The notes under the pieces are model-generated. The model saw only the letters and a program-made list of their open reading frames with translations. It had not been told where the DNA came from and did no database searches. A DNA stretch of 38,841 nt from Planctomycetota bacterium. GTDB lineage: Bacteria; Planctomycetota; UBA8742; JACQVU01; JANLHZ01. A program made the position numbers and the translations under genes. Shown one piece after another: positions 4,442 through 38,408 of this stretch; positions within the stretch are counted from its first letter, which is position 1; the number at the start of each line of letters is the position of its first letter. The stretch is taken from the NCBI GenBank assembly GCA_024653775.1, contig JANLHZ010000315.1, forward strand, positions 1 through 38,841. Reading direction: 5' to 3'.

Positions 4442-5350
4442 CTATTCACCGAAGACCGGCCTTTCGAAGTAGTGCAGGCCGTTTCCGTCTGAGGTCCGGA
4501 CCACTGAAACAAGCCTCCAGCCTTCCGTCGCGATTTTGTTCAGCGCTTCCTCGGACTGTTTGTGAGTCCTGACTCGCACCTCCTTCGGAATACCGTCCGC
4601 GAGAGACTTTTCGAGGTCTGATTCCTGCTGATAAACGAACATCACGAGTTTGTATTCGTATCGTTTCACGATCTGCTCCCTGCTGGTTTCTTCCCGCTCG
4701 CTGCTCACCGCTCCCTGTTCCCTGCTCCCTATTCCCTGTTCCCTGCTCCCTGCTCCCCGTTCCTTGCTCCCTGATTTTCTTCCGAAGTCGGCGGGAATCT
4801 CGCCCCACGCGCGGGTGTGCCATTTCTTCACCTCGATCGACGCGGGCAGCGTATCCCAGATTTTTCTTAAGACTTTCATCACTTCGTCGAACGAATGGAT
4901 GTCCTTCTTCGGTCCGGATTTCAGCCACGCGAGCACGACCTGCGAATCCGTCCATACGAATCGCTCCCCGCGTTCGATCGCGAACTCGATAGAGCGAAGC
5001 AGCGCCGTCAGCTCGCCGTAGTTGTTCGTGTGCCTGCCGATGTATTCGTCCAGGAGCACGGTCCCGCGAACGTCCGTTACGCGAATCTCGCAGCGCCCCA
5101 CGGGAGCGTCCGTCGACGCGTCGCCGCAGATTCCGGCGGTCGGCTTCCGTCCGTCGTCGTCGGTGAAAAGGCAGCCGCCGAGCTGATGGAGCAGGTCTGG
5201 CTCGGTCTTCGCGTGGGCCGGAATTCTTCTGCCCCACACATTCTTGACTTCCGTGACGCTCCCAGTCTCCGGCTGGTACTCGATGATCAGCCCCTTGCCC
5301 GCGTAGCGGACGATTCCCTTGTTCCCGGAAACGAGTTTTTCGAAGCTCAT
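4442..5350 (-). CDS. RNase H-like domain fused to a DUF4177 domain
   Basis: 302 residues in three parts. Residues 70-192 are an RNase H fold with all four acidic positions visible: D77 in CGDAST, E113 in NNYGEL, D135 in WTDSQVVLAWL and D188 in GEIPADFGRK. This predicts a metal-dependent nuclease acting on RNA/DNA hybrids or a related nucleic acid. Residues 195-226 are a low-complexity GSREQG linker encoded by a heptanucleotide array. Residues 228-300 (KRYEYKLVMFVYQQ ... ATEGWRLVSVV ... YFERP) match the small DUF4177 domain, whose function is unknown. The first 65 residues are unassigned. The gene appears to be the last cistron of the stress-switch operon at 12365-17860, now separated from it by the hsd insert. 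A frameshifted copy of its first 40 codons lies at 12169-12289. Confidence 0.8.
   Translation of the reverse strand: MSFEKLVSGNKGIVRYAGKGLIIEYQPETGSVTEVKNVWGRRIPAHAKTEPDLLHQLGGCLFTDDDGRKPTAGICGDASTDAPVGRCEIRVTDVRGTVLLDEYIGRHTNNYGELTALLRSIEFAIERGERFVWTDSQVVLAWLKSGPKKDIHSFDEVMKVLRKIWDTLPASIEVKKWHTRAWGEIPADFGRKSGSKERGAGSREQGIGSREQGAVSSEREETSREQIVKRYEYKLVMFVYQQESDLEKSLADGIPKEVRVRTHKQSEEALNKIATEGWRLVSVVRTSDGNGLHYFERPVFGE
4704..4773. repeat. Heptanucleotide tandem array inside the RNase H-DUF4177 gene
   Basis: Ten consecutive 7-nt units of the form CTCCCTG or TTCCCTG. Because three units make 21 nt, the array stays open and encodes a heptapeptide repeat (GSREQGA, GSREQGI) that forms the linker between the two domains. 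Change by one unit would shift the frame. Confidence 0.85.
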
Positions 5351-5465
5351 CGCTGAATAGTAGTCCGTAGTCGGTAGTCAGAAAAATGCAGAACGCAGAA
5401 TGCAGAATGCCGAATGCGGATCGAATAAGGAACTACTTCATCGAAAAATCCGATACGTCTTCCGC
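5231..5465. repeat. Left direct repeat flanking the hsd island (DR1-L)
   Basis: 235 nt that recur in the same orientation at 12169-12397. The repeat holds the first 40 codons of the RNase H gene, the intergenic spacer, and the last 11 or so codons of the hypothetical gene whose intact form is 12365-12889. I count 7 substitutions, a 1-nt indel and a 7-nt indel between copies, about 97 percent identity. The 7-nt indel is exactly one unit of the ATGCAGA array. Confidence 0.9.
5360..5420. repeat. Two adjacent heptanucleotide arrays
   Basis: GTAGTCC, GTAGTCG, GTAGTCA (5360-5380) are followed by ATGCAGA, ACGCAGA, ATGCAGA, ATGCCGA, ATGCGGA (5386-5420). The right-hand copy in DR1-R has four units of the second array instead of five. 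Confidence 0.8.
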
Positions 5466-5505
5466 CTGTAAGCAAAGGATATATTCCGCGACGAAGCGGA
5501 CATCC
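5433..5505 (-). pseudogene. Displaced 3'-end fragment of the hypothetical gene at 12365-12889
   Basis: The frame ends EYILCLQAEDVSDFSMK-stop, matching the end of the intact protein (ESILYFRAEDVSYFSME). Upstream of this the similarity fades and the DNA turns into a dispersed repeat reading SAAVSAACRR. It marks the left edge of the hsd insertion. The similarity over the outermost 40 nt is weaker than inside DR1-L, so the exact boundary is uncertain. Confidence 0.6.
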
Positions 5506-5566
5506 CGGCGGCAGGCAGCCGAGACGGCCGCGCTACATCTTGTGGATCGGGACAGACATCGAATTT

Positions 5567-5596
5567 TTGTTTTATTTTCTACGGTATGGATATTAT
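5567..5596 (+). promoter_or_regulatory. Candidate sigma-70-type promoter for the hsd operon
   Basis: TTGTTT (5567-5572) and TATTAT (5591-5596) are separated by 18 nt in an AT-rich patch. Transcription would start near 5603, giving a leader of about 75 nt. A good AAGGAG ribosome site (5663-5668) precedes the hsdM start. Motif match only. Confidence 0.4.
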
Positions 5597-5679
5597 CCTC
5601 GCCATTCAGCAAATAATGGAGCTCCTGAAAGATATGGGCAAGAACGGCGCGGACGTGTAGAAAAGGAGCGCAACCTCTG

Positions 5680-7764
5680 ATGGGCATGCAAAACGGACAA
5701 CTGAACTGGATCGCCGGGTTCATCTGGAACATCGCGGATGACGTGCTCCGCGATGTGTATGTGCGCGGCAAGTACCGCGACGTGATTCTGCCCATGACCG
5801 TCGTCCGCCGGCTCGATGCCGTGCTTGAGCCGACCAAGGAGGCCGTTCTCAAGTTGAACAAGCAGCTCGATGAGGGGGGCATCGCCAACAAAGGCGCCGC
5901 GCTCGGCCATGCATCGGGCAACGCGTTTTACAACGTTTCGCCCTTTACGCTCCGCGACCTTCGGGCCAGGGCGAAGCAGCAGCAGCTCAAGGCCGACTTC
6001 GAGGCCTACCTCGACGGCTTCTCGCCGAACGTGCAGGAGATCCTGGACAAGTTCAAATTTCGCAACCAGATTCCCACGCTCGTTGAGGCCGACATCCTCG
6101 GCAGCCTCATCGAGAAGTTCACCGCCAACGACATCAACCTGGGCCCCAGCCCTGTGTTCGACCAGGATGGCAAGGTCCGTCTGCCCGGCCTGGACAACCA
6201 CGCCATGGGAACCATCTTCGAGGAGCTGATCCGCCGCTTCAACGAGGAGAACAACGAGGAGGCCGGCGAGCACTTCACGCCCCGCGACGTGGTGAAGCTC
6301 ATGGCCAACCTGATCTTCTATCCCGTCGCCGATGAAATCCGCGACGCCACGTACCGCGTCTACGACGGCGCGTGCGGCACGGGCGGCATGCTCACCGTCG
6401 CCGAGGAAATCCTCGACGCCCTCGCCCGCGAGCATGGCAAGGAAGTCTCCATCCACCTGTTCGGCCAGGAGGTCCAGCCGGAAACCTACGCCATCAGCAA
6501 GGCCGACCTGCTGCTCAAAGGCGAAGGCCAGGCCGCCGAGAACATGAAGTACGGCTCCACACTCTCCTCCGATGCCTTCCCGTCGATGGAGTTCGACTTC
6601 ATGCTCTCCAATCCGCCCTACGGCAAGAGCTGGAAGACCGACCTCGAACGCATGGGCGGCAAGAAGGATCTGTCCGACTCGCGCTTCACCGTCCAGCACC
6701 AGGGCGACGAACTCTCCCTCATCACCCGTTCCAGCGACGGCCAGCTCATGTTCCTCGTGAACAAGCTGGCGAAGATGATCAGCGATTCGAAGTCGCCCGT
6801 AGGTAGCCGCATCGCCGAGGTCCACAACGGCTCATCCCTATTCACCGGCGACGCCGGGCAGGGCGAATCTAATATCCGCCGCTGGGTTATCGAGAACGAC
6901 TGGCTCGAAGCCATCATCGCGCTGCCGCTGAACACGTTCTACAACACCGGCATCGCCACCTACATCTGGGTGCTGACCAACCGCAAGCCCGCGCACCGCG
7001 AAGGCAAGGTCCAGCTCATCGACGCCACGGGCATCTCCACGCCGCTGCGAAAGAACCTCGGCAAGAAGAACTGCGAGCTGTCGGCCGAGCAGATCAAGCA
7101 GATCACCGACTCGTTCCTCGCCTTCGAGGAAACCGAGCACTCGAAGGTCTTCCCCAACGCCGCCTTCGGGTACTGGAAGATCGTCGTCGAGCGCCCGCTA
7201 CGGCTGGCGATCCACGTCACGCCAGGCAAGCTCGCCGCCTTCAAGGCCGACGCCCCTGCGAAGCTGCACAAGGCCGCCGATCTGCTGGCGGGGATCGCGG
7301 GCGGGTCGAAGCCGCACCTGGACTTCAACGCCGTGCAGCAGCGGTTCGAGTCGGCCATGAAGAAAGCCGACATCAAGCTCCGCGCCCCGGACCTTAAGGC
7401 ACTCTACGCCGCCTTCACCTTCAAGGATGAAGCCGCCGAGCCGGTCATCAAGAACAAGACCAAGACGCCTCCGGGGGTCGAGTACGAGCCGGACACCGAC
7501 CTGCGCGACACCGAGCAGGTGCCGCTGCTGGAGGACGGCGGCATCGAGGCGTTCTTCCAGCGCGAGGTGCTGCCGCACGTGCCGGACGCATGGATCGACC
7601 ACAGCAAGACGCAGGTCGGCTATGAGATCAGTTTTACTCGGCACTTCTACAAGCCCACGCCGCTGCGCTCGTTGGACGAGATCAAGGCCGACCTAGAAGC
7701 CCTCCAGGCCGAGGCCGAAGGACTGCTCGATGAGATCGTCGCCCCCGCAGGAGGGAAGGCATGA
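5680..7764 (+). CDS. hsdM: Type I restriction-modification methyltransferase subunit HsdM
   Basis: 694 residues. The N-terminal HsdM_N helical domain (residues 5-130, starting LNWIAGFIWNIADDVLRDV) precedes an N6-adenine methyltransferase core. The core has SAM motif I DGACGTGGM near residues 229-237 and catalytic motif IV NPPY at 311-314. The enzyme transfers methyl groups to adenine in host DNA and forms the M2S core of the restriction complex with HsdS. A C-terminal extension of about 170 residues, ending in a helical segment (LEALQAEAEGLLDEI), makes it longer than EcoKI HsdM. AAGGAG lies 11 nt before ATG 5680; ATG 5686 is an alternative start. Its stop overlaps the hsdS start (ATGA). Codon use favours GCC, CTG and GAG, unlike the TCG/GCG-rich neighbours, which supports horizontal acquisition. 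Confidence 0.95.
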   Translation: MGMQNGQLNWIAGFIWNIADDVLRDVYVRGKYRDVILPMTVVRRLDAVLEPTKEAVLKLNKQLDEGGIANKGAALGHASGNAFYNVSPFTLRDLRARAKQQQLKADFEAYLDGFSPNVQEILDKFKFRNQIPTLVEADILGSLIEKFTANDINLGPSPVFDQDGKVRLPGLDNHAMGTIFEELIRRFNEENNEEAGEHFTPRDVVKLMANLIFYPVADEIRDATYRVYDGACGTGGMLTVAEEILDALAREHGKEVSIHLFGQEVQPETYAISKADLLLKGEGQAAENMKYGSTLSSDAFPSMEFDFMLSNPPYGKSWKTDLERMGGKKDLSDSRFTVQHQGDELSLITRSSDGQLMFLVNKLAKMISDSKSPVGSRIAEVHNGSSLFTGDAGQGESNIRRWVIENDWLEAIIALPLNTFYNTGIATYIWVLTNRKPAHREGKVQLIDATGISTPLRKNLGKKNCELSAEQIKQITDSFLAFEETEHSKVFPNAAFGYWKIVVERPLRLAIHVTPGKLAAFKADAPAKLHKAADLLAGIAGGSKPHLDFNAVQQRFESAMKKADIKLRAPDLKALYAAFTFKDEAAEPVIKNKTKTPPGVEYEPDTDLRDTEQVPLLEDGGIEAFFQREVLPHVPDAWIDHSKTQVGYEISFTRHFYKPTPLRSLDEIKADLEALQAEAEGLLDEIVAPAGGKA

Positions 7765-9176
7765 CGAGCGACCTGCGGCCCTATCCCGAATACAAGGACT
7801 CCGGCCTGCCGTGGCTCGGCCGGGTTCCGGCGCATTGGGGCATGGTGCGTATGAAGCACCTGCTTAGAGAACGTAATGTGCGCGGGTATCCGGACGAACC
7901 ACTCCTCGCCGCCACTCAGACGATGGGTGTAGTCCGGAAGGAGGACTACGAGAACCGAACCGTGGTTGCCATGAAGGACTTGCACCTGCTAAAGCTGGTG
8001 GAAGTAGGTGACTTCGTTATCAGCCTTCGCTCATTCCAAGGGGGTATTGAACACGCGCGACACCGCGGAATCATTAGCCCGGCATACACAGTCCTTTACC
8101 CTGGCACCCCCTCGCTACACCCGTACCTTGCGTCGCTGTTCAAGTCCCGCCCGTTCATCGATGCCTTGCGCCTATACGTCACCGGTATCCGCCAAGGTCA
8201 GAATGTCGACTACGTGCGCCTGAGCCGATCATCGATTCCGGTTCCGCCATCGGAAGAGCGAGACGCGATTGCCCAGTTTGTAGACGACCTGGACCGCCGA
8301 TGTCGCCGGTTCATCCGCAACCGTCGGCGGTTGATTGAGGTGTTGAACGAGCAGAAGCAGGCCATCATCAACCGGGCGGTCACCCGCGGCCTCGACCCCA
8401 ACGCCCCCCTCAAGCCGTCCGGCATCGAGTGGCTTGGAAGTATTCCTGAGCATTGGGAGGTCATGTCACTGAAGCGGGTACTGCGAAGCCTAATCGACTG
8501 TGAGCACAAGACTGCCCCGGCTGCGGAAGGGACCGGCTTCCACGTGATTCGCACATCAGCCGTGAAATTAGGAAAGCTGCGATGGTCTGGAACCTATCAG
8601 ACCACAAAGGATGCCTTTGACCAGTGGACCCAGCGTGGAACGCCGGAAGCTGGCGATGTGGTATTTACGCGTGAAGCGCCAGCGGGTGAGGCGTGTGTCG
8701 TGCCAGCGGACGCCGACGTTTGCCTCGGCCAGCGCACTGTTTTGATGAAACTCAAGAGAGACGAATACGATCCTAGATTCCTTGTAAACATGATTTACGC
8801 AGGACCACCGCGCTTTCGCATTCAATTGGCTACGCAGGGATCGACAGTCGGCCACTTCAACATGGACGATATCGGCTGGATGCGAATATTGAAGCCACCC
8901 ATTGAGGAACAGATAGCGATCGCTGTTAGTGTCGGCGACCAAACTCGTAACGTGGACGCGGCCATCGAGAAAGCGGAACGTGAGATCGACCTGATCCGCG
9001 AGTACCGCACGCGGCTGATTGCCGACGTGGTGACCGGCAAGGTGGACGTACGCGGCCTCGCGCCGGCTGAGCCGCCTTCGGCCGACGAACAGAGCGACGA
9101 AGGGATCGACGACGAGGAGATGCTGGGGGACGACGAGCCCGAACTCGTCGAGGAGGCAGCCGATGCCGACGACTGA
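7761..9176 (+). CDS. hsdS: Type I restriction-modification specificity subunit HsdS
   Basis: 471 residues with the usual pseudo-symmetric layout. Target recognition domain 1 starts with SGLPWLGRVPAHW (residue 11 on) and ends in the IPVPPSEERDAIAQFVDDL stretch near 160. A central conserved helix (RRLIEVLNEQKQAIINRAV) follows. Domain 2 starts SGIEWLGSIPEHWE near 220 and ends in KPPIEEQIAIA near 378, then a distal helix ending in VTGKVDVRG near 424-432. Each domain would read half of a bipartite DNA target and direct both methylation and cleavage. The last 35 residues form a strongly acidic tail (SDEGIDDEEMLGDDEPEL), an addition I do not associate with the core family. The start overlaps the hsdM stop by 4 nt, and hsdR starts 14 nt before this stop, implying translational coupling. 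Confidence 0.93.
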   Translation: MTSDLRPYPEYKDSGLPWLGRVPAHWGMVRMKHLLRERNVRGYPDEPLLAATQTMGVVRKEDYENRTVVAMKDLHLLKLVEVGDFVISLRSFQGGIEHARHRGIISPAYTVLYPGTPSLHPYLASLFKSRPFIDALRLYVTGIRQGQNVDYVRLSRSSIPVPPSEERDAIAQFVDDLDRRCRRFIRNRRRLIEVLNEQKQAIINRAVTRGLDPNAPLKPSGIEWLGSIPEHWEVMSLKRVLRSLIDCEHKTAPAAEGTGFHVIRTSAVKLGKLRWSGTYQTTKDAFDQWTQRGTPEAGDVVFTREAPAGEACVVPADADVCLGQRTVLMKLKRDEYDPRFLVNMIYAGPPRFRIQLATQGSTVGHFNMDDIGWMRILKPPIEEQIAIAVSVGDQTRNVDAAIEKAEREIDLIREYRTRLIADVVTGKVDVRGLAPAEPPSADEQSDEGIDDEEMLGDDEPELVEEAADADD

Positions 9177-12117
9177 CACATCCGAAAAGGGCCTGGAGGC
9201 CCTGATCGTCGAGTCGCTGGTGAGCCAGGCCGGTTACGTGCAGGGCCGCAGCGAGGACTACGACCGCGACCATGCCGTGGACCTGGCGCAGCTTCAGGCG
9301 TTCGTCAGCGCCACCCAGCCGGAGACGGCCGAGGCGCTGGGGCTGGGCGAGGATACGCCCAAGCGGATGCAGTTCCTCCACCGCCTCCAGGGCGAGATCG
9401 CCAAGCGCGGCGTGATCGACGTGCTTCGCGGCGGCGTCAAGCACGGCCCCATCCACCTGGACCTGTTCTACGGCACGCCGACGCCCGGCAACACCAAAGC
9501 CGAGGATCGGTTCGCGGCCAACGTGTTCTCCGTCACGCGGCAACTGCGGTACAGCAAGGATGAGACGCAGTTCTCGCTGGACCTGGGCGTCTTCATCAAC
9601 GGCCTGCCGGTGGCGACGTTCGAACTGAAGAACCGGCTGACCAAGCAGACCGTCGAGGACGCGGTGCAGCAGTACAAGCGTGACCGAGACCCGAAGGAGC
9701 TGCTGTTCCAGTTCGGCCGATGCATGGTGCATTTCGCCGTGGACGACCAGGAGGTGCGGATGTGTACGCACCTCAAGGCCAAGGACTCGTGGTTCCTGCC
9801 GTTCAACATGGGCTTCAACGACGGCGCGGGCAACCCGCCCAACCCGGATGGGCTGAAGACGGCATACCTGTGGGAGCAGGCGCTGACCAAGGCGGGCATT
9901 ACGGACATCATCGAGAACTACGCCCAGGTCGTGGAGGAGAAGGACGACAAGGGTCGCAAGAAGCAGAAGCAGATCTTCCCGCGATACCACCAGCTCGACG
10001 TGGTGCGGAAGCTGCTGGCCGACGCCCAGGCGAGCGGCGCGGGCAAGCGGTATCTGATCCAGCACTCGGCCGGCAGCGGCAAGAGCAACTCCATCGCGTG
10101 GCTGGCGCATCAGCTTGTAGGGTTGGACCATAGCGGCTCGACGATCTTCGACTCGGTGATCGTCGTGACGGACCGGCGTGTGCTGGACAAGCAGATCAAA
10201 GACACCATCCGAGGGTTCGCCCAGGTGTCGGCGACGGTCGGCCACGCGGAGCGCAGCGGCGACCTGCGGCGGTTTCTGCGCGAGGGCAAGAAGATCATCA
10301 TCTCGACGGTGCAGAAGTTCCCGTTCATCCTGGACGAGATCGGGGACGAGCACCGGGGCCGGAAGTTCGCCATCATCATCGACGAGGCACACTCCAGCCA
10401 AGGCGGGCGCACGGCGGCGAAGATGAACATCGCGCTGGCCGAGAACGGCGGTGAGGGTGAGGACGAAGACTACGAGGACCAGATCAACCGGATCATGGAG
10501 GCACGGAAGATGCTGGGCAACGCCAGCTACTTCGCATTCACGGCCACGCCGAAGAACAAGACGCTGGAGATATTCGGCGAGCCGGTGCCGGACGGGGACA
10601 AGGTACGCCACAAGCCGTTCCACAGCTACACGATGAAGCAGGCGATCCAGGAGGGGTTCATCCTGGACGTGTTGGCCAACTACACGCCGGTGGAGAGCTA
10701 CTACCGGCTGATGAAGACGGTGGAGGACGACCCCGAGTTCGACACGAACCGGGCAACCAGGAAGCTGCGGCGGTACGTCGAGAGCCACGACCATGCGATT
10801 CGGCAGAAGGCCGAGATCATGGTGGACCACTTCCATGAGCAGGTGATCGCGCGGCGAAAGATCGGAGGGCAGGCGCGGGCGATGGTTATCTGCAGCGGCA
10901 TCCAGCGGGCGATCCAGTACTTCCACGCGGTGTCGGCGTACCTGACGAAGCGAAAGAGTCCGTACAAGGCCATCGTCGCGTTCTCGGGCGAGCACGAAGA
11001 CGGCGGTCGGCAGGTGACGGAGGCGACGCTCAACGAGTTCCCCAGCGCCCAGATTGAGAAGAAGTTCCAGCAGGACCCGTATCGGTTCCTGATCGTGGCG
11101 GATAAGTTCCAGACCGGCTACGACGAGCCGCTCTTGCACACGATGTACGTGGACAAGATTCTCTCTGGTATTAAGGCAGTGCAGACGCTGTCGCGACTAA
11201 ACCGGGCGCACCCGCAGAAGACCGACACGTTTGTTCTCGACTTCGTGAACGACACCGACACGATCACGATGGCGTTTGCCGACTACTACCGAACTACCGT
11301 GCTCAGCGAGGAGACCGACCCCAACAAGCTGCACGACCTGAAGGGTGCGCTGGACGGGTATCAGGTTTACGCGCGGCAGCAGGTGCGGCAGTTGGTCGAG
11401 CTTTTCCTCGGTGGTGCGGACCGCGACACGCTGGACCCGATATTGGATGTGTGTGTCGCCACCTACAACGCCGACCTCGACGAGGACGGGCAAGTCGATT
11501 TCAAGGGCAAGGCCAAGGCGTTCGTGCGGACGTATGGGTTCCTGGCGTCGATCCTGCCGTACACCAACCGCGACTGGGAAGAGCTGTCGATCTTCCTGAA
11601 CTTCCTCATCCCCAAGCTGCCTGCCCCGATCGAGGAAGACCTGTCGAAGGGAATTCTCGAGTCCATCGATATGGACAGCTACCGCAACGAGGTGAAGGAA
11701 ACGCTGAAGCTGACCTTGGCCGACGAGGACGGCGAGGTCGGCCCAGTGCCCACAAGCGGCGGCGGACGCAAGCCGGAGCCGGAACTGGACCGTCTGAGCA
11801 ACATCATCAAGGCGTTCAACGACCATTTCGGCAACATCGACTGGAAGGACGCAGATCGTATCCGCAAGGTGATCGCCGAGGAACTTCCGGGTAAGGTCGC
11901 GGCGGACAAGGCATACCAGAACGCCATGAAGAACAGCGACAAAGCTGCGGCACGCCTAGAGCACGACCGGGCACTGCAGAAGGTGGTTATCGAGATGCTG
12001 TCTGACCATACGGAACTGTTCAAGCAGTTCAGCGACAATCCGAGCTTCAAGAAGTGGCTGGCGGATACGATATTTTCCGTGACCTATGACGACTACGTGC
12101 CGGAGGCCCGGTCATGA
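9163..12117 (+). CDS. hsdR: Type I restriction-modification endonuclease subunit HsdR
   Basis: 984 residues. The N-terminal nuclease domain carries the PD-(D/E)xK half-motif E154-L-K156 (ATFELKNRL), followed by the QxxxY element (AVQQYK). A superfamily 2 translocase follows, with Walker A GSGKS at 304-308, DEAH at 407-410 and the FTATP motif III, then helicase domain 2 with ADKFQTGYDEP and LSRLNRAHP. A C-terminal helical region would contact the M2S core. The subunit translocates and cuts DNA lacking host methylation. All motifs are intact, so the system looks functional. It overlaps hsdS by 14 nt. Its TGA overlaps a further ATG (12114), suggesting the donor operon carried another gene that is cut off by the insertion boundary. 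Confidence 0.95.
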   Translation: MPTTDTSEKGLEALIVESLVSQAGYVQGRSEDYDRDHAVDLAQLQAFVSATQPETAEALGLGEDTPKRMQFLHRLQGEIAKRGVIDVLRGGVKHGPIHLDLFYGTPTPGNTKAEDRFAANVFSVTRQLRYSKDETQFSLDLGVFINGLPVATFELKNRLTKQTVEDAVQQYKRDRDPKELLFQFGRCMVHFAVDDQEVRMCTHLKAKDSWFLPFNMGFNDGAGNPPNPDGLKTAYLWEQALTKAGITDIIENYAQVVEEKDDKGRKKQKQIFPRYHQLDVVRKLLADAQASGAGKRYLIQHSAGSGKSNSIAWLAHQLVGLDHSGSTIFDSVIVVTDRRVLDKQIKDTIRGFAQVSATVGHAERSGDLRRFLREGKKIIISTVQKFPFILDEIGDEHRGRKFAIIIDEAHSSQGGRTAAKMNIALAENGGEGEDEDYEDQINRIMEARKMLGNASYFAFTATPKNKTLEIFGEPVPDGDKVRHKPFHSYTMKQAIQEGFILDVLANYTPVESYYRLMKTVEDDPEFDTNRATRKLRRYVESHDHAIRQKAEIMVDHFHEQVIARRKIGGQARAMVICSGIQRAIQYFHAVSAYLTKRKSPYKAIVAFSGEHEDGGRQVTEATLNEFPSAQIEKKFQQDPYRFLIVADKFQTGYDEPLLHTMYVDKILSGIKAVQTLSRLNRAHPQKTDTFVLDFVNDTDTITMAFADYYRTTVLSEETDPNKLHDLKGALDGYQVYARQQVRQLVELFLGGADRDTLDPILDVCVATYNADLDEDGQVDFKGKAKAFVRTYGFLASILPYTNRDWEELSIFLNFLIPKLPAPIEEDLSKGILESIDMDSYRNEVKETLKLTLADEDGEVGPVPTSGGGRKPEPELDRLSNIIKAFNDHFGNIDWKDADRIRKVIAEELPGKVAADKAYQNAMKNSDKAAARLEHDRALQKVVIEMLSDHTELFKQFSDNPSFKKWLADTIFSVTYDDYVPEARS

Positions 12118-12185
12118 GTGTCCGCGCCGCCCCGCTGCGAAGGTCTTGCGTGATGAAGCCGTGGAGCTGCCCCACACGTTCTTGA
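12114..12185 (+). pseudogene. Truncated start of a gene following hsdR
   Basis: ATG at 12114 overlaps the hsdR stop as ATGA, the same coupling seen at hsdM/hsdS. Only 23 codons follow before TGA. A frame shifted by one reads KVLRDEAVELPHTF up to the DR1-R boundary at 12169, which looks more protein-like than the ATG frame. I read this as the remains of a fourth operon gene lost at the junction. In related operons the gene after hsdR is often a M48-type metallopeptidase, but the fragment is too short to tell. Confidence 0.35.
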
Positions 12186-12289
12186 CTTCCGTGACGCTCC
12201 CCGTCTCCGGCTGGTACTCGATGATCAGCCCCTTGCCAGCGTAGCGGACGATTCCCCTTGTTTCCGGAAACGAGTTTTTCGAAGCTCAT
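12169..12289 (-). pseudogene. Displaced 5'-end fragment of the RNase H-DUF4177 gene
   Basis: The ATG at 12289 and the first residues MSFEKLVSGNKG match the intact gene at 4442-5350. A 1-nt insertion in a G run then breaks the frame, and similarity stops after about 40 codons at the hsd insert edge. This is the operon-proximal copy, left without its body when the hsd operon came in. Confidence 0.85.
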
Positions 12290-12397
12290 CGCTGAATAGT
12301 AGTCCGTAGTCGGTAGTCAGAAAAATGCAGAACGCAGAATGCAGAATGCAGATCGAATAAGGAACTACTCCATCGAAAAATATGATACGTCTTCCGC
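12169..12397. repeat. Right direct repeat flanking the hsd island (DR1-R)
   Basis: 229 nt, near-identical to 5231-5465 and in the same orientation. It runs from 52 nt after the hsdR stop to just inside the 3' end of the hypothetical gene at 12365-12889, and carries a heptamer array one unit shorter than DR1-L. Confidence 0.9.
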
Positions 12398-12889
12398 GCG
12401 GAAGTAAAGAATCGATTCCGAGCCGAAGCAGACGTCGGCGCCAGACATCGTAAGCTTCTTGCCGCCCGAGAGATGAAGGACAGTGCCTCGCTCCTCGTTT
12501 CGAAGCTCTTCGACGAGAAGCCCCACCAGCGGCTCGATCGCGGCGCGGCGGTTCCATACCGCGCTGCCGCCTTCCGGGACGAACTCGAGCGTCACCAGAT
12601 CTGCAAGCGGATCCTTCGATCCCCGTGGCATAAGCCTCTCCCACAGGCTGACGTCGCAGATCCACATCTCCGAAACCGCGACGACCCGCAAAAAGTTCTT
12701 CCCGGACAGCTCGATCGTCAGCGCGTCGTCGAACAAATGGAAATTCGTAATCGTCAGTCCGCTAATGAATTCCGAGAGGAACGGATCGATGCGATATCTT
12801 GCTGGAATGCTCGCGCCGGTTTTTTTTGCTCGGGCGGACCTTCCCGGCTCCGGATCAGGCCTCGAAATCAGCTTGACGTGCGTCCTCAT
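12365..12889 (-). CDS. Hypothetical protein in the stress-switch operon
   Basis: 174 residues with no recognised domain, signal peptide or membrane span. The middle (SGLTITNFHLFDDALTIELS, GKNFLRVVAVSEMWICDVS) looks like a small mixed alpha/beta cytosolic protein. The start is set by translational coupling: ATG 12889 overlaps the STAS gene stop as ATGA. An open frame continues upstream of this to 13300 but only as a shadow of the STAS gene. Position directly after rsbV/rsbW-like genes suggests a role in, or under control of, that switch. Its last codons lie in the DR1 repeat, and a fragment of them recurs at 5433. Confidence 0.7.
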   Translation of the reverse strand: MRTHVKLISRPDPEPGRSARAKKTGASIPARYRIDPFLSEFISGLTITNFHLFDDALTIELSGKNFLRVVAVSEMWICDVSLWERLMPRGSKDPLADLVTLEFVPEGGSAVWNRRAAIEPLVGLLVEELRNEERGTVLHLSGGKKLTMSGADVCFGSESILYFRAEDVSYFSME

Positions 12890-13239
12890 GCCGGGAATGC
12901 ACTCACGGCTTCGCGGAGGTCGTAGCAGATTTTGAACATCAGCGTGATGCCGAGGAGGTCGAAGACTTCCTTCACGTTGTCGTTCGGCTTGATGAGTATG
13001 ATCTCGCCTTCGTTTTCCTGCGCGACGCTGAGGTTTCCGATGAAGACTCCCGCGCCCGCGGAGGAGATGTACTCGACTTTCTCGAGATCGATGATGACGC
13101 GGTAATTCCCCTGCTCGAACTGATCTTGAATCTCGGCGTCCATCATTTCGAAGGTGTGCGCGTCGAGAAAGCCCTCGACCGAGAGGTAGACGATGCCACC
13201 CTTCATCTTTCGTGACGTAATTGAAAAATCGGCACTCAC
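12886..13239 (-). CDS. STAS-domain anti-sigma factor antagonist (RsbV/SpoIIAA type)
   Basis: 117 residues, a single STAS domain. The family landmarks are the edge strand GGIVYLSVEGFLDAHTFEMM, the strand YRVIIDLEKVEYI, and the phosphoacceptor loop SSAGAGVF at residues 59-66. In partner-switching modules the dephosphorylated antagonist binds the RsbW-type kinase and frees its target. The exact phosphorylated Ser here (59 or 60) cannot be decided by eye because the loop reads SSAG rather than DSSG. The GTG start at 13239 overlaps the kinase stop by 4 nt and has GGAGGA 8 nt upstream. The natural phosphatase partner is the PP2C protein encoded upstream in the same operon. Confidence 0.9.
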   Translation of the reverse strand: MSADFSITSRKMKGGIVYLSVEGFLDAHTFEMMDAEIQDQFEQGNYRVIIDLEKVEYISSAGAGVFIGNLSVAQENEGEIILIKPNDNVKEVFDLLGITLMFKICYDLREAVSAFPA

Positions 13240-13703
13240 AGGGTTTGTCCTCCTCCGCCCGAAGGGGTCTCTTTCTTCTTTTCGGGAACATAACGTACAA
13301 GCTTTAGCTCATTCATTTTTCCCTCTTCAAAATGATACACCACCTCGTCCATTATCTTGCGCATCAGGAACACGCCGAGACCCTTCTTCTTGCCAGTCTT
13401 GATGTGATTTTCGATGTCCACGTCCGAGATGGAATTCGGGTCGAAGGAACTGCCTTCGTCCCTTACATATACCGTAAATCTGGTCATTTCGCCCACGATC
13501 TCGACTTCGATTTTTCCGTCGCGAACGTCCGCGGGGTAGCCGTGCTCGATTATGTTCGCGACCGCTTCGTCAACCGCAAGAATAATCTTGTTCTCCTCCG
13601 ACTTCGGCAGCGGGCCCTTTCTGAAATGATCGAGGACGAAAGACCTCACCTTTGGAAGGTTTTCAGTCGAGTTCGAAATTGCTAATGTTCCTCTCGTGAG
13701 CAA
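13236..13703 (-). CDS. Anti-sigma factor serine/threonine kinase (RsbW/SpoIIAB type)
   Basis: 155 residues, a single GHKL-type ATPase domain. The N box has E46 and N50 in AVDEAVANIIEHGY, the G1 box is DEG at 82-84, and the G2 box is KKGLGVFLMRKI near 107-116. This kinase would phosphorylate the STAS protein encoded just downstream and sequester a sigma factor or other regulator. No sigma factor gene is in the window, so the final target is unknown. The best start is TTG at 13703, preceded by GGAG at a 6-nt spacing; no ATG lies in the right place. The C-terminus ends in a short GGGG tail beyond the fold. Confidence 0.88.
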   Translation of the reverse strand: MLTRGTLAISNSTENLPKVRSFVLDHFRKGPLPKSEENKIILAVDEAVANIIEHGYPADVRDGKIEVEIVGEMTRFTVYVRDEGSSFDPNSISDVDIENHIKTGKKKGLGVFLMRKIMDEVVYHFEEGKMNELKLVRYVPEKKKETPSGGGGQTL

Positions 13704-13718
13704 CGCTTCTCCAACTGG

Positions 13719-13907
13719 TTTAGGAGGCTAAAATAAATAAACTATCCATCTCGCATCTCATCTTCACGCCATCTTCTCTTCGCTCTCGGTCGTCAAATAC
13801 TCATCGGAACTATGGCTACGACTCCGTTTTGACTTCTTCGATCGAAGCGAACCTGACATAAACCCGAGCGCGATTTTGAATACCTTATTAATTTTAGCCT
13901 CCTTAAA
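13719..13907. repeat. Long-range imperfect inverted repeat in the phosphatase-kinase gap
   Basis: TTTAGGAGGCTAAAATAAAT at 13719 is mirrored by ATTTTAGCCTCCTTAAA ending at 13907, about 20 bp with a few mismatches and a loop of about 145 nt. On the operon (minus) strand the upstream arm places an AAGGAGG just after the phosphatase stop. The arms could pair in the mRNA and hide that ribosome site. Confidence 0.5.
13764..13892 (-). CDS. Possible small ORF in the phosphatase-kinase gap
   Basis: On the minus strand AAGGAGG lies 5 nt before an ATT at 13892 that opens a 42-codon frame (NKVFKIALGFMSGSLRSKKS, then a Ser/Glu-rich end). An in-frame ATG at 13859 would give 31 residues. The strong ribosome site and an otherwise unexplained 199-nt gap in a tightly packed operon argue for it. 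The rare start codon and low-complexity composition argue against. Treat as speculative. Confidence 0.2.
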   Translation of the reverse strand: MNKVFKIALGFMSGSLRSKKSKRSRSHSSDEYLTTESEEKMA

Positions 13908-16644
13908 GTCTTCTGATGGTCAGAATGGTGATGTCATCCGACTGTTCCGCGTCCGCCCTCCAGGAGTCGAGCGCGGTTACAAGCTGTTTCACGTACGTTC
14001 CGGAATCGACATTTTTAGCAGATTTGGTCACGTTGAAAAACTTCTCGTCTTCAAATTCTTCTTTGTTCGGGCTCATCGCCTCTGTGACTCCGTCGGTGTA
14101 CATCACGACGCGATCTCCCTTGCCTATCAGCACCTTCCCCTTCTGGATTATCCGACGGAAAATCGGACCCTTGTCGAAGCCGAGCGCGATGCCGTTCGGG
14201 TTGATCTCCTCGATCTCTCCGGTGCGCGCGCGCCAGATCGCGAGCGGGTTATGACCCGCGGACGCAACTTCCATCTCTCCGGTGTTCGGATCGAGGATGC
14301 CGTAGAGCGCGGTGACGAACATTCCCTTGCGGATGTCCTGCGCGAGCACGTCGTTGACCTTGATGAGCGTCGCCATCGGGCACTTGTTGGTGAACGCCTC
14401 GGACCGGACGAGCGAACGCGCCATCGCCATCACCATCGACCCAGGCACGCCTTTGCCCGAAACGTCCGCCACGATGAACCCGATGCGCCCGTCCTCGGTG
14501 CGCTCGATTATGTCGTAGTAGTCGCCGCCGACCTCCTTCGAAGGCTGGTAGTGCGCGGCGATGTCGAAGCCCGGAACCTCCGGAATGTACCTTGGAGTGA
14601 GGTTCTGCTGGATTTCGCGGGCGACGCCCAGTTCGTGCTTCTGCTTCTCGAGCTGGACCTCCTTGACCTGACCCTGCGCGAGATGCGCGGTCATCGCGTT
14701 GAACGTTATCGCAAGCACGCCGATTTCGTCCGACGATCTCGGCTGCGTGACGTGATTGAGATTTCCTTCCGCGACGATCATTATGTCCTGCATAAGGCTC
14801 ATCACGGGCTTCGTGACGGTCCGCGCGACGAAGTACCCCGCGGCGATTCCGATGACGCTCGAGAAGATGATCCCGAGCACCGCGACGAGTTTGAGGTTTC
14901 CTTCCGCGCTTGCGAGCTCCTCGCCGGAAAGGATGATGATCGCGCGTTCCGCCTTCGGGCCATACGTATCCGCGGAGTTGGCGGGAACCGAATGCGGGAG
15001 GTCCGTCCAGAACTGCACCACCGGGATCGTCTTCTGGATCGTCTTGTACTCCGCGCCCGCGGGAAGATCGTTCACGCCGTCGAAAATCCAGTCGGCTTTC
15101 TCCGTGTCGTATCTGGCGGTGATCGCGCGCGCGCCCGACGGAAGGAAGTACGCGCTCTCCTTGATCGTGATCAGATAGCGGTTCATCATCACCGCCGTCT
15201 TGATTCCGTGGATGCTCACTTCCTCCGCGAACTGGAAGGTGCAGGTTATGTCGCGGGACTCGTCCAGTTCCTCGTTCAGAGGGATGAGCGAAAGCTGCCT
15301 GCGGCTTCTCGCTCGCTTCTGATCGTCTGGATTTCGCTCTGATCGCTGCGACCAGATGACCATCTCCACTATCGCGGTGTCGAGGCCGTTGTCTCCGAAG
15401 CTCGCCGCGGTCTGGAGGGAACGCTGGTATCTGCCGAGGACGTCGTTGATGTCCTCTTTCTTTTTATTTTCCGCCACTCTCGGCTTGTTGACCTTTTCGA
15501 GCTGATCGAGGGCAGCCCTGCGTCTGCGCTCGTTCTCGGAATCGACTGGCGGATTCACGCCGAAAAGGGTGTCGATGCGCTCCTTCTGCTCTTTCTCGTA
15601 ATCGAGGACGCGCTTGTCTTGCAGATAATACCTTACTTCGATCTTGTCGATCTCGACGATCATCGAGTCGCCAAGCGCGGCGAAAATCTTCGCCATCCGC
15701 ACGCCGTCGTCCTGAATCTGGGTTCTAAGCTGACTCGACGCCATGCTGTACATCACGGTGCCGAGAAGACACACGACCCCGACGATCAGGAAACCCGCTG
15801 TCAGCGCGAACTTGATCGTGATGCCAAGACTCGCCTGGCTTTCATCGTCGGTCTTCGCGGCCTTTTCCGTCTTCTCCGCTTTTTCGGCTTTCTCCGCCTT
15901 GACCGGCTTCGGCTTCGGAGCGCCCTTCTTTTCGATCTCCCCCGAACTCTTCGACCTTCCGGCACGGGTGCGGGTCGAAGTAGCCACCCGATCGTCCTGC
16001 CGGCCCGCGCGACCGATCTTCGAGGGCGTTTTCGCCCGGGGCTTTTCGAGTTCCTCGGTCGGAGCGAGTCTGCGATCGTCCACCTGCGGAGCCGAGGTCA
16101 CAGCCGCGGGCGCAAGCGCCGCGGGCAAAGGCGTCGCGGGCTTCGTGTGATGATCGCTCTTCTTAACCGAAGGCATATCCTGGCTTCTTCCGCGCTGGCT
16201 TCGAAGCGAACGACGTTCCGACGTGCTGCTCAGACCCTTGACCGGACCGCCGGCTCCCGGACCGTGATCCGGCGAATCCTCGATCGCGATCTCAGGCTCC
16301 GTGACCATCTCAGGCCTCGGAATCGGCTTCGATGTCTTGTTTCTCTCTCGCAGATCGCGGACGCCTTCTTTACCGCGCCCAACTTCAGTGTCGGTAACTT
16401 TCCCGTCGCGAACTTTCCTGTCGTCGCCCACGCCGCTGACGCGGCCCCCGCCAGAGCCCCCGCCAGAGCCCCCGCCAGAGCCATTGTCGCTGGTCTTTAC
16501 GCTCGAAGTCTTGCGCTTTTCGTCCTTGCCGTTGAGTTTTCCATCGCGAACGGGACGAGCAGTCACTTCCGTTTTTTTCGAAAGCGGCTTCGTTCCCGCG
16601 CTGCTTCGCGAAGGCGGTCTTAATGGCCGACGACTGTTATCCAT
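13903..16644 (-). CDS. Membrane-bound PP2C phosphatase with HAMP domain (RsbU/SpoIIE type)
   Basis: 913 residues. Residues 1-270 are a disordered, Lys/Ser/Pro-rich cytoplasmic region with a GGGS repeat (encoded by three 12-nt units) and a KAEKAEKAEKTEK run. Transmembrane helix 1 spans about 275-298, an extracytoplasmic sensor region about 300-580, and helix 2 about 582-606, followed directly by a HAMP domain ending SSDEIGVLAITFNAM. The SpoIIE domain carries GGDYYD at 706-711, DVSGKGVPGSM, MYTDGVTEA and QSDDITIL, the metal-binding signatures. It would sense an envelope or external signal and dephosphorylate the STAS antagonist, releasing the partner switch. The ATG overlaps the GGDEF gene stop by 8 nt (ATGGATAA), so the two are coupled. 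Confidence 0.92.
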   Translation of the reverse strand: MDNSRRPLRPPSRSSAGTKPLSKKTEVTARPVRDGKLNGKDEKRKTSSVKTSDNGSGGGSGGGSGGGRVSGVGDDRKVRDGKVTDTEVGRGKEGVRDLRERNKTSKPIPRPEMVTEPEIAIEDSPDHGPGAGGPVKGLSSTSERRSLRSQRGRSQDMPSVKKSDHHTKPATPLPAALAPAAVTSAPQVDDRRLAPTEELEKPRAKTPSKIGRAGRQDDRVATSTRTRAGRSKSSGEIEKKGAPKPKPVKAEKAEKAEKTEKAAKTDDESQASLGITIKFALTAGFLIVGVVCLLGTVMYSMASSQLRTQIQDDGVRMAKIFAALGDSMIVEIDKIEVRYYLQDKRVLDYEKEQKERIDTLFGVNPPVDSENERRRRAALDQLEKVNKPRVAENKKKEDINDVLGRYQRSLQTAASFGDNGLDTAIVEMVIWSQRSERNPDDQKRARSRRQLSLIPLNEELDESRDITCTFQFAEEVSIHGIKTAVMMNRYLITIKESAYFLPSGARAITARYDTEKADWIFDGVNDLPAGAEYKTIQKTIPVVQFWTDLPHSVPANSADTYGPKAERAIIILSGEELASAEGNLKLVAVLGIIFSSVIGIAAGYFVARTVTKPVMSLMQDIMIVAEGNLNHVTQPRSSDEIGVLAITFNAMTAHLAQGQVKEVQLEKQKHELGVAREIQQNLTPRYIPEVPGFDIAAHYQPSKEVGGDYYDIIERTEDGRIGFIVADVSGKGVPGSMVMAMARSLVRSEAFTNKCPMATLIKVNDVLAQDIRKGMFVTALYGILDPNTGEMEVASAGHNPLAIWRARTGEIEEINPNGIALGFDKGPIFRRIIQKGKVLIGKGDRVVMYTDGVTEAMSPNKEEFEDEKFFNVTKSAKNVDSGTYVKQLVTALDSWRADAEQSDDITILTIRRL
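16444..16479. repeat. 12-nt tandem repeat in the phosphatase N-terminus
   Basis: Three exact copies of GCCCCCGCCAGA; on the coding strand they encode Gly-Gly-Gly-Ser type repeats in the disordered N-terminal region. Copy number is likely to vary between strains. Confidence 0.8.
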
Positions 16645-32190: not shown

Positions 32191-35202
<3,012 letters not shown>

Positions 35203-35359
35203 TTTGCCCCTGAAACTGGTTTTTCGGTTGATTCGCGATCCAAATTCGAACCGAACAGGTTACCAAAGCGCCCGCGTATACAGCAAAGGAATTGCAAAAG
35301 TCCAACCATTCTGCTTGGCGCCTCCAAAGTAACGAACCGCACACATGGATAGACAAAAG

Positions 35360-35390
35360 AATATTTTGACGAAAATTTTCTGAAAATATT
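35360..35390. promoter_or_regulatory. AT-rich dyad between uvrA and the cassette
   Basis: AATATTTT and AAAATATT arms enclose GAAAATTTTC, giving a nested, nearly palindromic 31-bp site. It stands between the divergent uvrA and membrane-protein genes, where an operator for either would be expected. No known binding motif was recognised. Confidence 0.4.
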
Positions 35391-35477
35391 GCGCTTAACG
35401 TCTTGCCTTATGCGAGGGTGGGGGTAAACTTGCTTAAACGTTTGATTTCCAAAGCGCATCGAGTCAGGAGTTGAAAA

Positions 35478-35999
35478 ATGGATGGTACTACTTCGAATCC
35501 AATTCCACGCTGGATTATCTGTCTTCTTCTCGTCCCCGTTTATATTCTCACGATTTTCGTCATTGCTGACTTCCCGAGCCTGGTTTCCATTTTTATTTCG
35601 CTCTTTCTAGGTGGACCGGACCTCGGTCTTTACCTTGTCGGCGGATTTCTGGCTCTCGTCGTCGTGCTCGTGCTTGCCGGACTGACCGTTTCTCACCTGA
35701 TGACCTGGCGAGCGAAGTCGTCGGTTCAGCAGTGGGCGATGTCCCGCGGCGTCAATATCTCGGGAATCGTGGCTTTCTTCGGTGGAAACTTTTTCCGCGA
35801 CGGACTCACGATCAGAATTACGATTTTCAGCATTCTCGATGTAGTGGCTTTTCTCGTAGGATTGCTGTTATCCGTGTCCGACCCGACCGACTCGGGAACT
35901 TGGGTTCTTGTCTTGATCACAGGTGCGCTTTTTCTCATCCCCTCTGGATTTCTGAAGATGCTGAACGCCTGGTTTTCTAACACGCAGATAAACGTTTGA
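35478..35999 (+). CDS. Hypothetical membrane protein, first gene of the cassette upstream of uvrA
   Basis: 173 residues with four predicted spans (about 12-30, 32-47, 51-73 and 112-160, the last probably two helices split near 135). The linker MTWRAKSSVQQWAMSRGVNI is basic and likely cytoplasmic. I recognise no family. AGGAG lies 8 nt before ATG 35478. It heads three plus-strand genes enclosed by the DR2 repeats; the next starts 40 nt downstream. Its base composition is intermediate between the GC-rich flanks and the AT-rich genes that follow. Confidence 0.7.
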   Translation: MDGTTSNPIPRWIICLLLVPVYILTIFVIADFPSLVSIFISLFLGGPDLGLYLVGGFLALVVVLVLAGLTVSHLMTWRAKSSVQQWAMSRGVNISGIVAFFGGNFFRDGLTIRITIFSILDVVAFLVGLLLSVSDPTDSGTWVLVLITGALFLIPSGFLKMLNAWFSNTQINV

Positions 36000-36039
36000 A
36001 CATGAAGAATACCCTGTGTATACTTCTTGAATTGGAGAT

Positions 36040-36807
36040 TTGAAAATGCCGTTAAACGATTTTTTGCGCGAAACCACCGTGGGACCGAACTTTGCAAAAA
36101 TTTTTGGCGGGCCGACGAGCGATGTAAGCCTGACCGCCATCCCAGCACGAGTAGTTACAGAGCAATCCATTGAAACAACCACGCAGTTGCCGATCATAAA
36201 TCAGAATAGAAACTTTGGGGTTAGGTTTGGCGGATTGAAAATGAACTTGTGGTCAGGACCTTGTCCGCCAGCGGTGGGAAGCGCAGCCGCGGTTCCTTCC
36301 TTTTACTTTTATGTACCCAATCCTAAACCAGGTGTTTCGCCTGAACCTCACACTTGTGCCTTGATGCCAGGCCCCGGCGCAACGGCAGTGGTATCAGCCG
36401 TTAGGAAAGTTACTTGCGGTGCAATTCTTGATTTGATTTGCACATGTTATGTAATTACCATTACACATACATACCCCGCGCCATTTATTCGCTGCTGGGC
36501 GCCAGGCGGCCCGTTTGCGGACGTAGTAGCTGACTACCCTGCAACGCCAGGGGCGCACTTCACCGTTGATACCTGTATGAGTTGCTTTGGAAGTTCTATT
36601 TTGGAATCAAATGAAGGCGCATCCGTCGACGAAAGAGATAATGTTGTTTTAAAAGCGCAAAACATTGAAATTGACTTTGACATGCTGCAGTCATTTTCCA
36701 AAATATTTCAAGAAGCAGAAAAAATAAAATCAGAGATGATGGGTTTCCAACCTGTACCTCTCGGCTCAGCATACTCAGGCATAAATGGATGCGGTTGTAA
36801 TGGATAA
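36040..36807 (+). CDS. Cysteine-rich hypothetical protein in the cassette
   Basis: 255 residues without signal peptide or clear membrane span. Ten cysteines are spread through the chain, several in pairs: ICTC, TCMSC and a terminal NGCGCNG. The middle is rich in Pro, Gly and aromatic residues (PSFYFYVPNPKPGVSPEP), then VTCGAILDLICTCYVITITH. Paired cysteines in a protein with no export signal suggest metal binding or, more speculatively, a processed peptide. GGAG lies about 10 nt before ATG 36040. AT-rich codon use differs from the chromosome on both sides. Its end overlaps the next gene by 23 nt. No family recognised. Confidence 0.65.
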   Translation: MKMPLNDFLRETTVGPNFAKIFGGPTSDVSLTAIPARVVTEQSIETTTQLPIINQNRNFGVRFGGLKMNLWSGPCPPAVGSAAAVPSFYFYVPNPKPGVSPEPHTCALMPGPGATAVVSAVRKVTCGAILDLICTCYVITITHTYPAPFIRCWAPGGPFADVVADYPATPGAHFTVDTCMSCFGSSILESNEGASVDERDNVVLKAQNIEIDFDMLQSFSKIFQEAEKIKSEMMGFQPVPLGSAYSGINGCGCNG

Positions 36808-38053
36808 TAAAACGAACAATTTTTATCGACACATTGTTGTATCTATTATTGCGGTTCTATTTCTTTCTACCTGCAATAAAAACATAGAGGATGATTACGT
36901 CAATTCATTGCGGGATCGATTTCAGGATGCCGGTGAAGATAGTAAAAATAAACGACTTCTGTTTATCGAAGCACTACGACGAGTGAATTCGCCGGCTTCA
37001 TCACTGTTATCGCCGGATAAGTATCCTAACGGTCCTTTTGGCACGGATATGTTGAATAGCTGGCCTGAAGAAGACGCAGATTTGATAAAGTGGCTGGAGA
37101 CAAATTCTGGAGTTATCACCAACATAGTAGATTCTTCGGATTTAGAAAAAAATGAACCCGTTTTCCCAGATGCCGCGTGGGAAGAATATCAGTCTCCAGC
37201 GTTTTTTCGTATTTCTGGACTTCGGAACCATCTTTTTATTTCTCGCCCAACTGCGATCGCTGTGTTGCAGGCTGAATTGCGAAGGCGGCTTCAATCAGGG
37301 TCTGTTGACAAAGCAGTAGAGCTAGCTTGCGCGTCGTTACCATTTTCAGTTGATCCAATGGATGAGTATGGTGTGTATGACATATGCTATGAAATTCGTC
37401 GAATGCTGTCCATAGGATTGAGTGACTTACAAGGTGAGAAATTAGGTGCCTCTATACTTGATACCATTGCTAAGTATTCTTTCACATCAATAGTCCAGTT
37501 CTATCTGTTGGAAGAAAGTAAAGAATTTCCACCTACTTTCGACCCGATAGTTGTTGAAGCTGGAAATGCCCCTCCGATCCCACCATCAGTTGACCAGTTA
37601 ATCGCGGAGTATCGCAAGTTGATCCAGATAGTTGAAAGAGGCACATATTCCGAAAAACTGTCTGCAATAAAAGCTGAAATGTCGAAGGCTTCAGAAAACT
37701 CTTCATGGCGTCATTACTTTTGGACATCAGTTAAGGACAAGTTTTTACAGATATTCAGACAGCACTTGATATTGTACGCCACCTATCTTTTTCTTCTCGT
37801 CGAAATCAACACCGATAATGTTGCTTTTCCGCCGGGTTCAATGGCTGATGTCTCTGAGATCGTTAGCGATAAGAATTTATTCTCTTCATTCAGAGATTGG
37901 ATAAAGATTAAAAAGGGTAATAATGATTATTCGATGTATATCATAGGAGATGACGGAATTGATTGGGAAGGCGAGTTGTTCGGATCTGACGACGACAATC
38001 GACGCTTTTCGATAAAACCTAGCTTTCCGCCACGGTCCTTCGCTCATAGGTGA
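36785..38053 (+). CDS. Hypothetical lipoprotein, last gene of the cassette
   Basis: 422 residues. An N-terminal span ([15 protein letters not shown]) ends in a lipobox LSTC at Cys30, so export and lipid anchoring are likely. The body is largely helical and acidic with no recognised domain. The C-terminal stretch [19 protein letters not shown] resembles the YSVGPDGxDDGG motif at the end of some hypothetical or pseudopilin-like proteins in PVC-type bacteria. ATG 36800 (codon 6) is an alternative start, overlapping the previous stop as ATGGATAA. The last few codons run up to the DR2-R boundary near 38055, so the original C-terminus may have been altered by the insertion. Strongly AT-rich. Confidence 0.7.
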
Positions 38054-38060
38054 TTTTCAT

Positions 38061-38309
38061 CGGCGAAAGTCCCCGGATGTAATCGTTAGGCGGCTTTTCC
38101 ATCTGTCCGAGGAACTGCCGCGCGTAGGACGACAGGCTCTCGACGTACCTTCGCTGACCTTCCGCGTAGATCGTGTCGAACGCGAGGGACGATTTCCCGC
38201 TGCCGGAGACCCCGCTGAAAATGACGAGCTGCTTTTTGGGAATCTTGACGTGGACGTTCTTCAGATTGTGAATCTTCGCGCCCTTGACTTCTATGTGATC
38301 CGGCTCCAT
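38061..38309 (-). pseudogene. uvrA: Truncated uvrA copy, codons 1-83
   Basis: ATG at 38309 begins the same 83 residues as intact UvrA, including Walker [10 protein letters not shown], with one change (Tyr75 to Asn). Similarity ends after GLSP; the frame runs on to 38019 in unrelated DNA. The silent nature of the differences indicates that it came from a functional allele and has not yet decayed. The region 38409-38659 beyond it holds no gene I can support, only a small CGCAA/TTGCG dyad at 38488-38502. Confidence 0.92.
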
Positions 38310-38408
38310 TTTGCCCCTGAAACTGGTTTTTGCGGTTTCGACGATGCGAATTTGAACCGACGAGCCTAACAAACTCCCCCCGTGTACGGCAAAGAAATTG
38401 CAAAGTCC
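38061..38408. repeat. Right direct repeat flanking the three-gene cassette (DR2-R)
   Basis: Second copy of the uvrA 5' end and upstream DNA. Alignment with 34954-35303 shows 16 substitutions in the diverged part of the coding region, 15 of them silent. Confidence 0.9.

Follow-up and report, generated by a model that had tools for sequence, protein, structure and literature searches.

How can a restriction-modification (R-M) operon come to lie between two copies of the same piece of host DNA, with no enzyme of integration beside it? The question is raised by a stretch of 38,841 nt (hereafter the window) from an uncultured Planctomycetota bacterium, in which a type I R-M operon is bracketed by a long direct repeat. 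Insertion of R-M genes with long, variable target duplication is described for H. pylori and other genome comparisons in four reports (PMC3874152, PMC3031569, PMC1643837, PMC4978471), which attribute the pattern to Nobusato et al. 2000 and Furuta et al. 2010; the movement of R-M operons between genomes without integrases or transposons is not settled by these comparisons. The locus analyzed here belongs to this published class, an assignment that the preliminary description of the DNA had missed. It shares with the class R-M genes that lie, without a mobile element, inside a long direct repeat of locus-specific host DNA; it differs in the length of the repeat (about 280 bp here versus the order of 100 bp), in carrying a type I operon, and in sequence features that suggest copies from two diverged lineages.

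A host gene junction duplicated around a type I R-M operon

Comparison of the window with itself returned a direct repeat at 5229-5517 and 12167-12447 (290 columns, 89.3% identity, E 6e-106), outscored by just one other repeat of the window, on either side of what reads as a complete type I R-M operon, hsdM-S-R (5680-12117), predicted on the strand opposite to that of the neighboring genes, here called B and C. The features concerned are as follows.

4442-5350, minus strand: intact gene C; residues 83-192 form an RNase H-like domain, which an in-frame heptamer array separates from DUF4177
5229-5517, minus strand: left repeat copy; 3'-terminal ~28 codons of a second, truncated B ('B, 5433-5517), spacer, and first 41 codons of intact C
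5326-5405 (approximate left-copy coordinates): exact core of 80 bp common to both copies (p = 0.006, column shuffle); probable crossover tract
5518-12166: the insert, about 6.65 kb; the hsdMSR genes plus 162 nt on the hsdM side and 49 nt on the hsdR side
5680-7764, plus strand: hsdM, 694 aa; HsdM_N and N6_Mtase domains, NPPY motif at residue 311
7761-9176, plus strand: hsdS, 471 aa; type I specificity subunit
9163-12117, plus strand: hsdR, 984 aa; HSDR_N and SWI2/SNF2 helicase domains, DEAH box
12167-12447, minus strand: right repeat copy; C' (41 codons from the start of C, with a frameshift, cut off at 12167), spacer, and 3' end of intact B
12365-12889, minus strand: gene B, intact; 174 aa, an orphan without family match
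12886-13239, minus strand: STAS-domain protein, anti-anti-sigma type
13236-13703, minus strand: HATPase_c_2 protein, anti-sigma kinase type
13903-16644, minus strand: SpoIIE phosphatase with HAMP, RsbU-like

On the minus strand, SpoIIE comes first and is followed by HATPase, STAS, B, spacer, C', hsd (reverse), 'B, spacer, intact C. The repeats of about 230 bp that had been proposed around hsd (5231-5465 and 12169-12397) are therefore present, if slightly longer, and both copies have the composition ascribed to them: the end of a minus-strand gene, a spacer, and the start of the RNase H-DUF4177 gene. The copy of C on the right, described as frameshifted and truncated, stops after 41 codons and carries a 1-nt insertion, and the distance of about 75 nt proposed between B and the RNase H gene is exactly the length of the spacer (B ends at 12365, C' starts at 12289). 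Beyond 12447, part-by-part alignment found no similarity between the copies. Had the repeats been scattered independently of hsd, a search of the 5.4-Mb genome assembly should have returned them elsewhere; the full repeat occurs at this single locus, marking it as locus-specific host DNA, and its only dispersed part is the heptamer-rich spacer, about 50 bp.

An assembly artefact or a chimera of strains could mimic such an arrangement, as the assembly is fragmented (331 contigs), the genome is rich in repeats, and exact cores of 80-93 bp could mislead a k-mer assembler. Yet the copies are non-identical and are flanked by unique DNA that differs from one to the other, the 12166/12167 junction offers no shared sequence for a false join, and unrelated assemblies show this architecture too (see below). 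We regard this explanation as very improbable.

The insert is a bare operon of foreign composition

All three subunits carry the domains and motifs expected of a type I R-M operon, as had been claimed, and in this the predicted system resembles EcoKI and EcoR124II, although HsdM, at 694 aa, is only distantly related to the solved M subunits of those two enzymes. Relatives of HsdM with 77-87% identity occur in several phyla. Because DNA homology to the nearest hsd relatives ends at hsdM (5685) and just short of the hsdR stop, the insert is essentially a bare operon; the stretch 5500-5690 occurs once in the genome. The opposite strand and different codon use of the hsd genes, both noted previously, are plain to see: GC3 of hsdM and hsdR is 0.88-0.89 versus about 0.75 in most neighbors, and their codon-use distance exceeds that of host genes of similar length. 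By the composition of hsdM and hsdR, then, the operon is foreign-looking in this host.

Direct repeats at both ends, together with the frequent carriage of type I hsd genes on plasmids, would suit an integrase island or a composite transposon with the repeats as its ends. However, in agreement with the preliminary description, we found no integrase or transposase and no terminal inverted repeats at the insert borders; there was also no IS at the edges and no tRNA in the window, and the repeat itself consists of parts of two host genes and is confined to this locus. These results largely refute a mobile element, which we rank as the least probable of the explanations considered. A 10-bp inverted match (CGGCGCGGAC) at 5645-5654 and 12120-12129 lies before hsdM and after hsdR, inside the insert ends and not at the borders. 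A promoter scan of 5100-5760 and an Rfam scan yielded nothing useful.

The repeat copies differ unevenly and, in C, synonymously

Divergence between the two copies is concentrated at one edge. Identity is 95.9% over the 5' end of C and 98.7% over the spacer but 80.7% over the 3' end of B, so that the B edge is about 20% diverged versus about 3% for spacer plus C (16/83 versus 5/197, Fisher 6e-6). One uniform decay after a duplication would not predict so much more divergence at the B edge. The two genes also differ in the kind of change: 'B and B are separated by 5 synonymous and 11 non-synonymous differences, indicating no constraint, and the four substitutions between C and C' are all synonymous (4/4, p = 0.004, a test that rests on four substitutions).

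The window holds a second bracketed insertion, new here and absent from the preliminary description, 23 kb from the hsd scar on the same contig (34955-38408).

34955-35303, minus strand: uvrA repeat copy 1; codons 1-83 of the intact uvrA (32191-35202) with about 100 nt upstream
35304-38061: insert of 2.76 kb; three ORFs without identification, partly low GC (about 0.40 at 36600-38000)
38062-38408, minus strand: uvrA repeat copy 2; 5' part of uvrA, cut short after about codon 83, with upstream DNA, 88% identical to copy 1

This case bears the same signature as the hsd repeat. The uvrA fragment differs from intact uvrA by 18 synonymous and 2 non-synonymous changes (p = 1e-9), and the copies share an exact core of 93 bp (p = 1e-4), so that in both repeats of the window an exact core of 80-93 bp lies between diverged edges. 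Such a core is probably what a crossover tract would leave, with constraint near the start codon as an alternative source.

Had the unit merely copied a host target, the dead fragment should decay regardless of codon position; the C' and uvrA fragments instead differ from their intact counterparts almost exclusively at synonymous positions. They look like parts of genes that were functional in another lineage until recently, and the repeat copies would then derive from two diverged lineages. The pattern of synonymous and non-synonymous change between copies separates two origins, namely two diverged functional alleles and one decaying target copy, and bracketed R-M or toxin-antitoxin modules of any genome can be examined in this way.

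A proposed single crossover with DNA of a related lineage

The almost exclusively synonymous differences in C' and uvrA, together with the exact cores between diverged edges, lead us to favor recombination with a related lineage over a fresh target duplication: we lean towards the foreign hsd operon having arrived by single-crossover or one-sided homologous recombination with such DNA. The donor DNA would already have carried hsd beside a B-spacer-C locus, and one crossover between the incoming DNA and the resident B-spacer-C would have followed. The incoming form may have been a trimmed, re-circularised molecule (Campbell-type) or may have joined by homology on one side and illegitimately at its far end; either would yield B-spacer-C'(truncated) / hsdRSM / 'B-spacer-C(intact), with the 12166/12167 junction as the presumed illegitimate end-join. 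'B would have been cut by hsd already in the donor and have decayed there, and C' would stem from a C that until recently still worked. The high divergence of 'B without constraint would follow from an earlier cut of B by hsd in the donor, although the truncation of 'B right beside hsd is explained only by assuming this earlier insertion there. We infer the donor, the single crossover and the illegitimate join at 12166/12167 from the product; none of the records searched has hsd adjoining 'B-spacer-C as a donor should.

Two known systems come close to this scheme. In an E. coli study, non-replicating DNA, which its authors inferred had been cut, trimmed and closed into circles again, was integrated by single crossover and left duplications of 109-950 bp (PMC3240628). 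Here, too, the insert lies between duplications of a partly trimmed homologous segment, and about 280 bp falls within that range; the E. coli case involved a laboratory plasmid whose homology came from cloned E. coli lacZ, whereas the donor proposed here would be natural and diverged. The second is homology-facilitated illegitimate recombination, a route put forward for T6SS effector-immunity arrays (PMC5361080), which likewise combines homology at one end with an illegitimate join at the other and leaves shifted or truncated host pieces behind; it is expected to delete recipient DNA, whereas recipient sequence is duplicated at our locus. The preliminary description had offered two routes, single-crossover integration of a circle and recombination with a donor carrying the same locus; both are favored by the synonymous-only changes in C' and the exact core, and neither is proved. 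The pattern is real and makes the locus a new member of the known class, with a mechanism that has been sharpened, not proved. Its direct repeat should let RecA delete the operon or amplify it in tandem.

Other hsd-family operons are bracketed in the same way

To place the locus among its relatives, we surveyed 76 distinct hsd-family loci with enough flank, requiring a direct repeat no more than 2 kb from each operon end. Such a repeat was present in 4/76 (this locus, L066, L075 and L092) and in 1/271 shifted control placements, the one control (L086) overlapping an hsdM-like stretch. Bracketing recurs in about 5% of these operons, an enrichment over controls that is suggestive, not overwhelming. 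L026, L031 and L054 were left out of the bracketed count, their repeats lying far from the operon, and L080 was dropped, as its repeat looks like a dispersed element and recurs, inverted, within that locus.

The three additional operons are new, and two of them belong to other phyla. Their duplicated host genes are unrelated, encoding urocanase (L066), a DMFA2_C-domain protein (L075) and an unnamed protein (L092). In L066, L075 and the present locus, the second copy begins within about 50 nt of the hsdR end. The character of the divergence varies: L092 shows 6 synonymous and 0 non-synonymous changes over the last 41 codons, and in L075 and L066 the dead copy has decayed without synonymous bias.

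These loci also bear on a strict insertion with long target duplication, in which the R-M unit would have inserted itself, by a transposition-like or staggered-break process, copying about 280 bp of host target, after which the copies diverged with partial gene conversion. Long and variable duplications, of the order of 100 bp, are the published R-M pattern (PMC3874152, PMC3031569, PMC1643837). Three further operons of the family bracketed alike at unrelated host genes speak for such a process, as does the unbiased decay of the dead copies in L075 and L066. By itself, however, it leaves the synonymous-only differences of C' unexplained, as well as the contrast between a B edge diverged by about 20% and a spacer plus C diverged by about 3%. 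We consider it possible but doubtful for the present locus.

Further bracketed inserts in the same genome

The scar at uvrA and several more elsewhere suggest that bracketed insertions are frequent in this organism. Within 1.07 Mb of the genome, taken piecewise from contigs partly chosen for earlier hits and hence not random, locus-specific direct repeats around small inserts were also found in stretches L234, L240, L202, L193 and L210. At L234 (3236-5452), the 3' end of a ligA-like gene is duplicated around a 2-kb low-GC insert, one ORF of which weakly matches the candidate defense family PDC-M32A; at L240, the repeat lies at the 3' end of an FGE-like gene. We take both gene names from our reading of the C termini. 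A DUF433-DUF5615 pair, laid out like a toxin-antitoxin module, lies at L202 (9610-10499) between 100-bp direct repeats, 94% identical, that represent the 3' end of the neighboring 637-aa gene. At L193 (746-3959), the start of a 234-aa gene is duplicated together with the 3' end of the preceding gene, and the inserted 513-aa ORF starts inside the duplicated start, as in allele-displacement arrays.

Synonymous bias is again seen in L193, L210 and a second L234 pair. It is absent from the ligA (L234), L240 and L202 repeats, which have 4-8 substitutions each; this would count against a single crossover, as plain target duplication would give such a pattern. A bolder reading, less likely than not, is that the lineage repeatedly captures small modules (the R-M operon, the DUF433/DUF5615 toxin-antitoxin-like pair, low-GC gene sets) from diverged relatives by single crossover at short homeologous gene ends, without mobile-element enzymes, leaving direct repeats of 100-350 bp as datable scars.

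The several locus-specific repeats in the 1.07-Mb sample could also mean that duplication of gene ends is general in this genome and that hsd entered later, between ready-made tandem copies. Under this order of events hsd would have had to hit the precise point where two copies meet, and the cargo takes up the entire gap between the copies in all cases examined; we judge it quite unlikely.

A dispersed element of ~140 bp with terminal inverted repeats (GTAACTGTTCACGGGGTAGTTCGCG) was also seen at L210 (16310-16450), L211, L229 and elsewhere, with about 27 copies in 20 sampled stretches.

The genes flanking the insertion

What did the locus look like before hsd? The SpoIIE-HATPase-STAS core is conserved in relatives, and in none of them does B or C follow it. 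An ancestral B-C junction, with C as the next cistron of the stress-switch operon, would therefore be read from the duplication itself. Searches with each gene found neither B nor C in 99 class-level relatives; the two occur together in no other genome searched, with no well-scoring matches elsewhere. Against a 392-genome sample of the phylum, B gave one marginal match (E 2e-4), and viral contigs searched with B and C gave nothing usable. A C-like RNase H match was present in only one other genome, at 33%.

The surroundings of these genes contain several small repeats. Heptamer tandem arrays (CTGYTCC, TAGTCNG, GCAGAAY), which we take to resemble cyanobacterial heptamer repeats, occupy 4673-4777 and 5351-5430 and occur genome-wide, one of them in frame within gene C; CTGYTCC x3 has 36 matches in this genome and none across 40 others from the phylum. 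An inverted-repeat element (13719-13906) that separates the SpoIIE gene from the HATPase gene shares sequence with a dispersed MITE-like family of ~154 bp (e.g., L233 10566-10719), present in about 30 copies in the 1.07 Mb sampled. Directly after ORF 33-1718 lies an imperfect inverted repeat of about 96 nt (1719-1814), 79% self-complementary.
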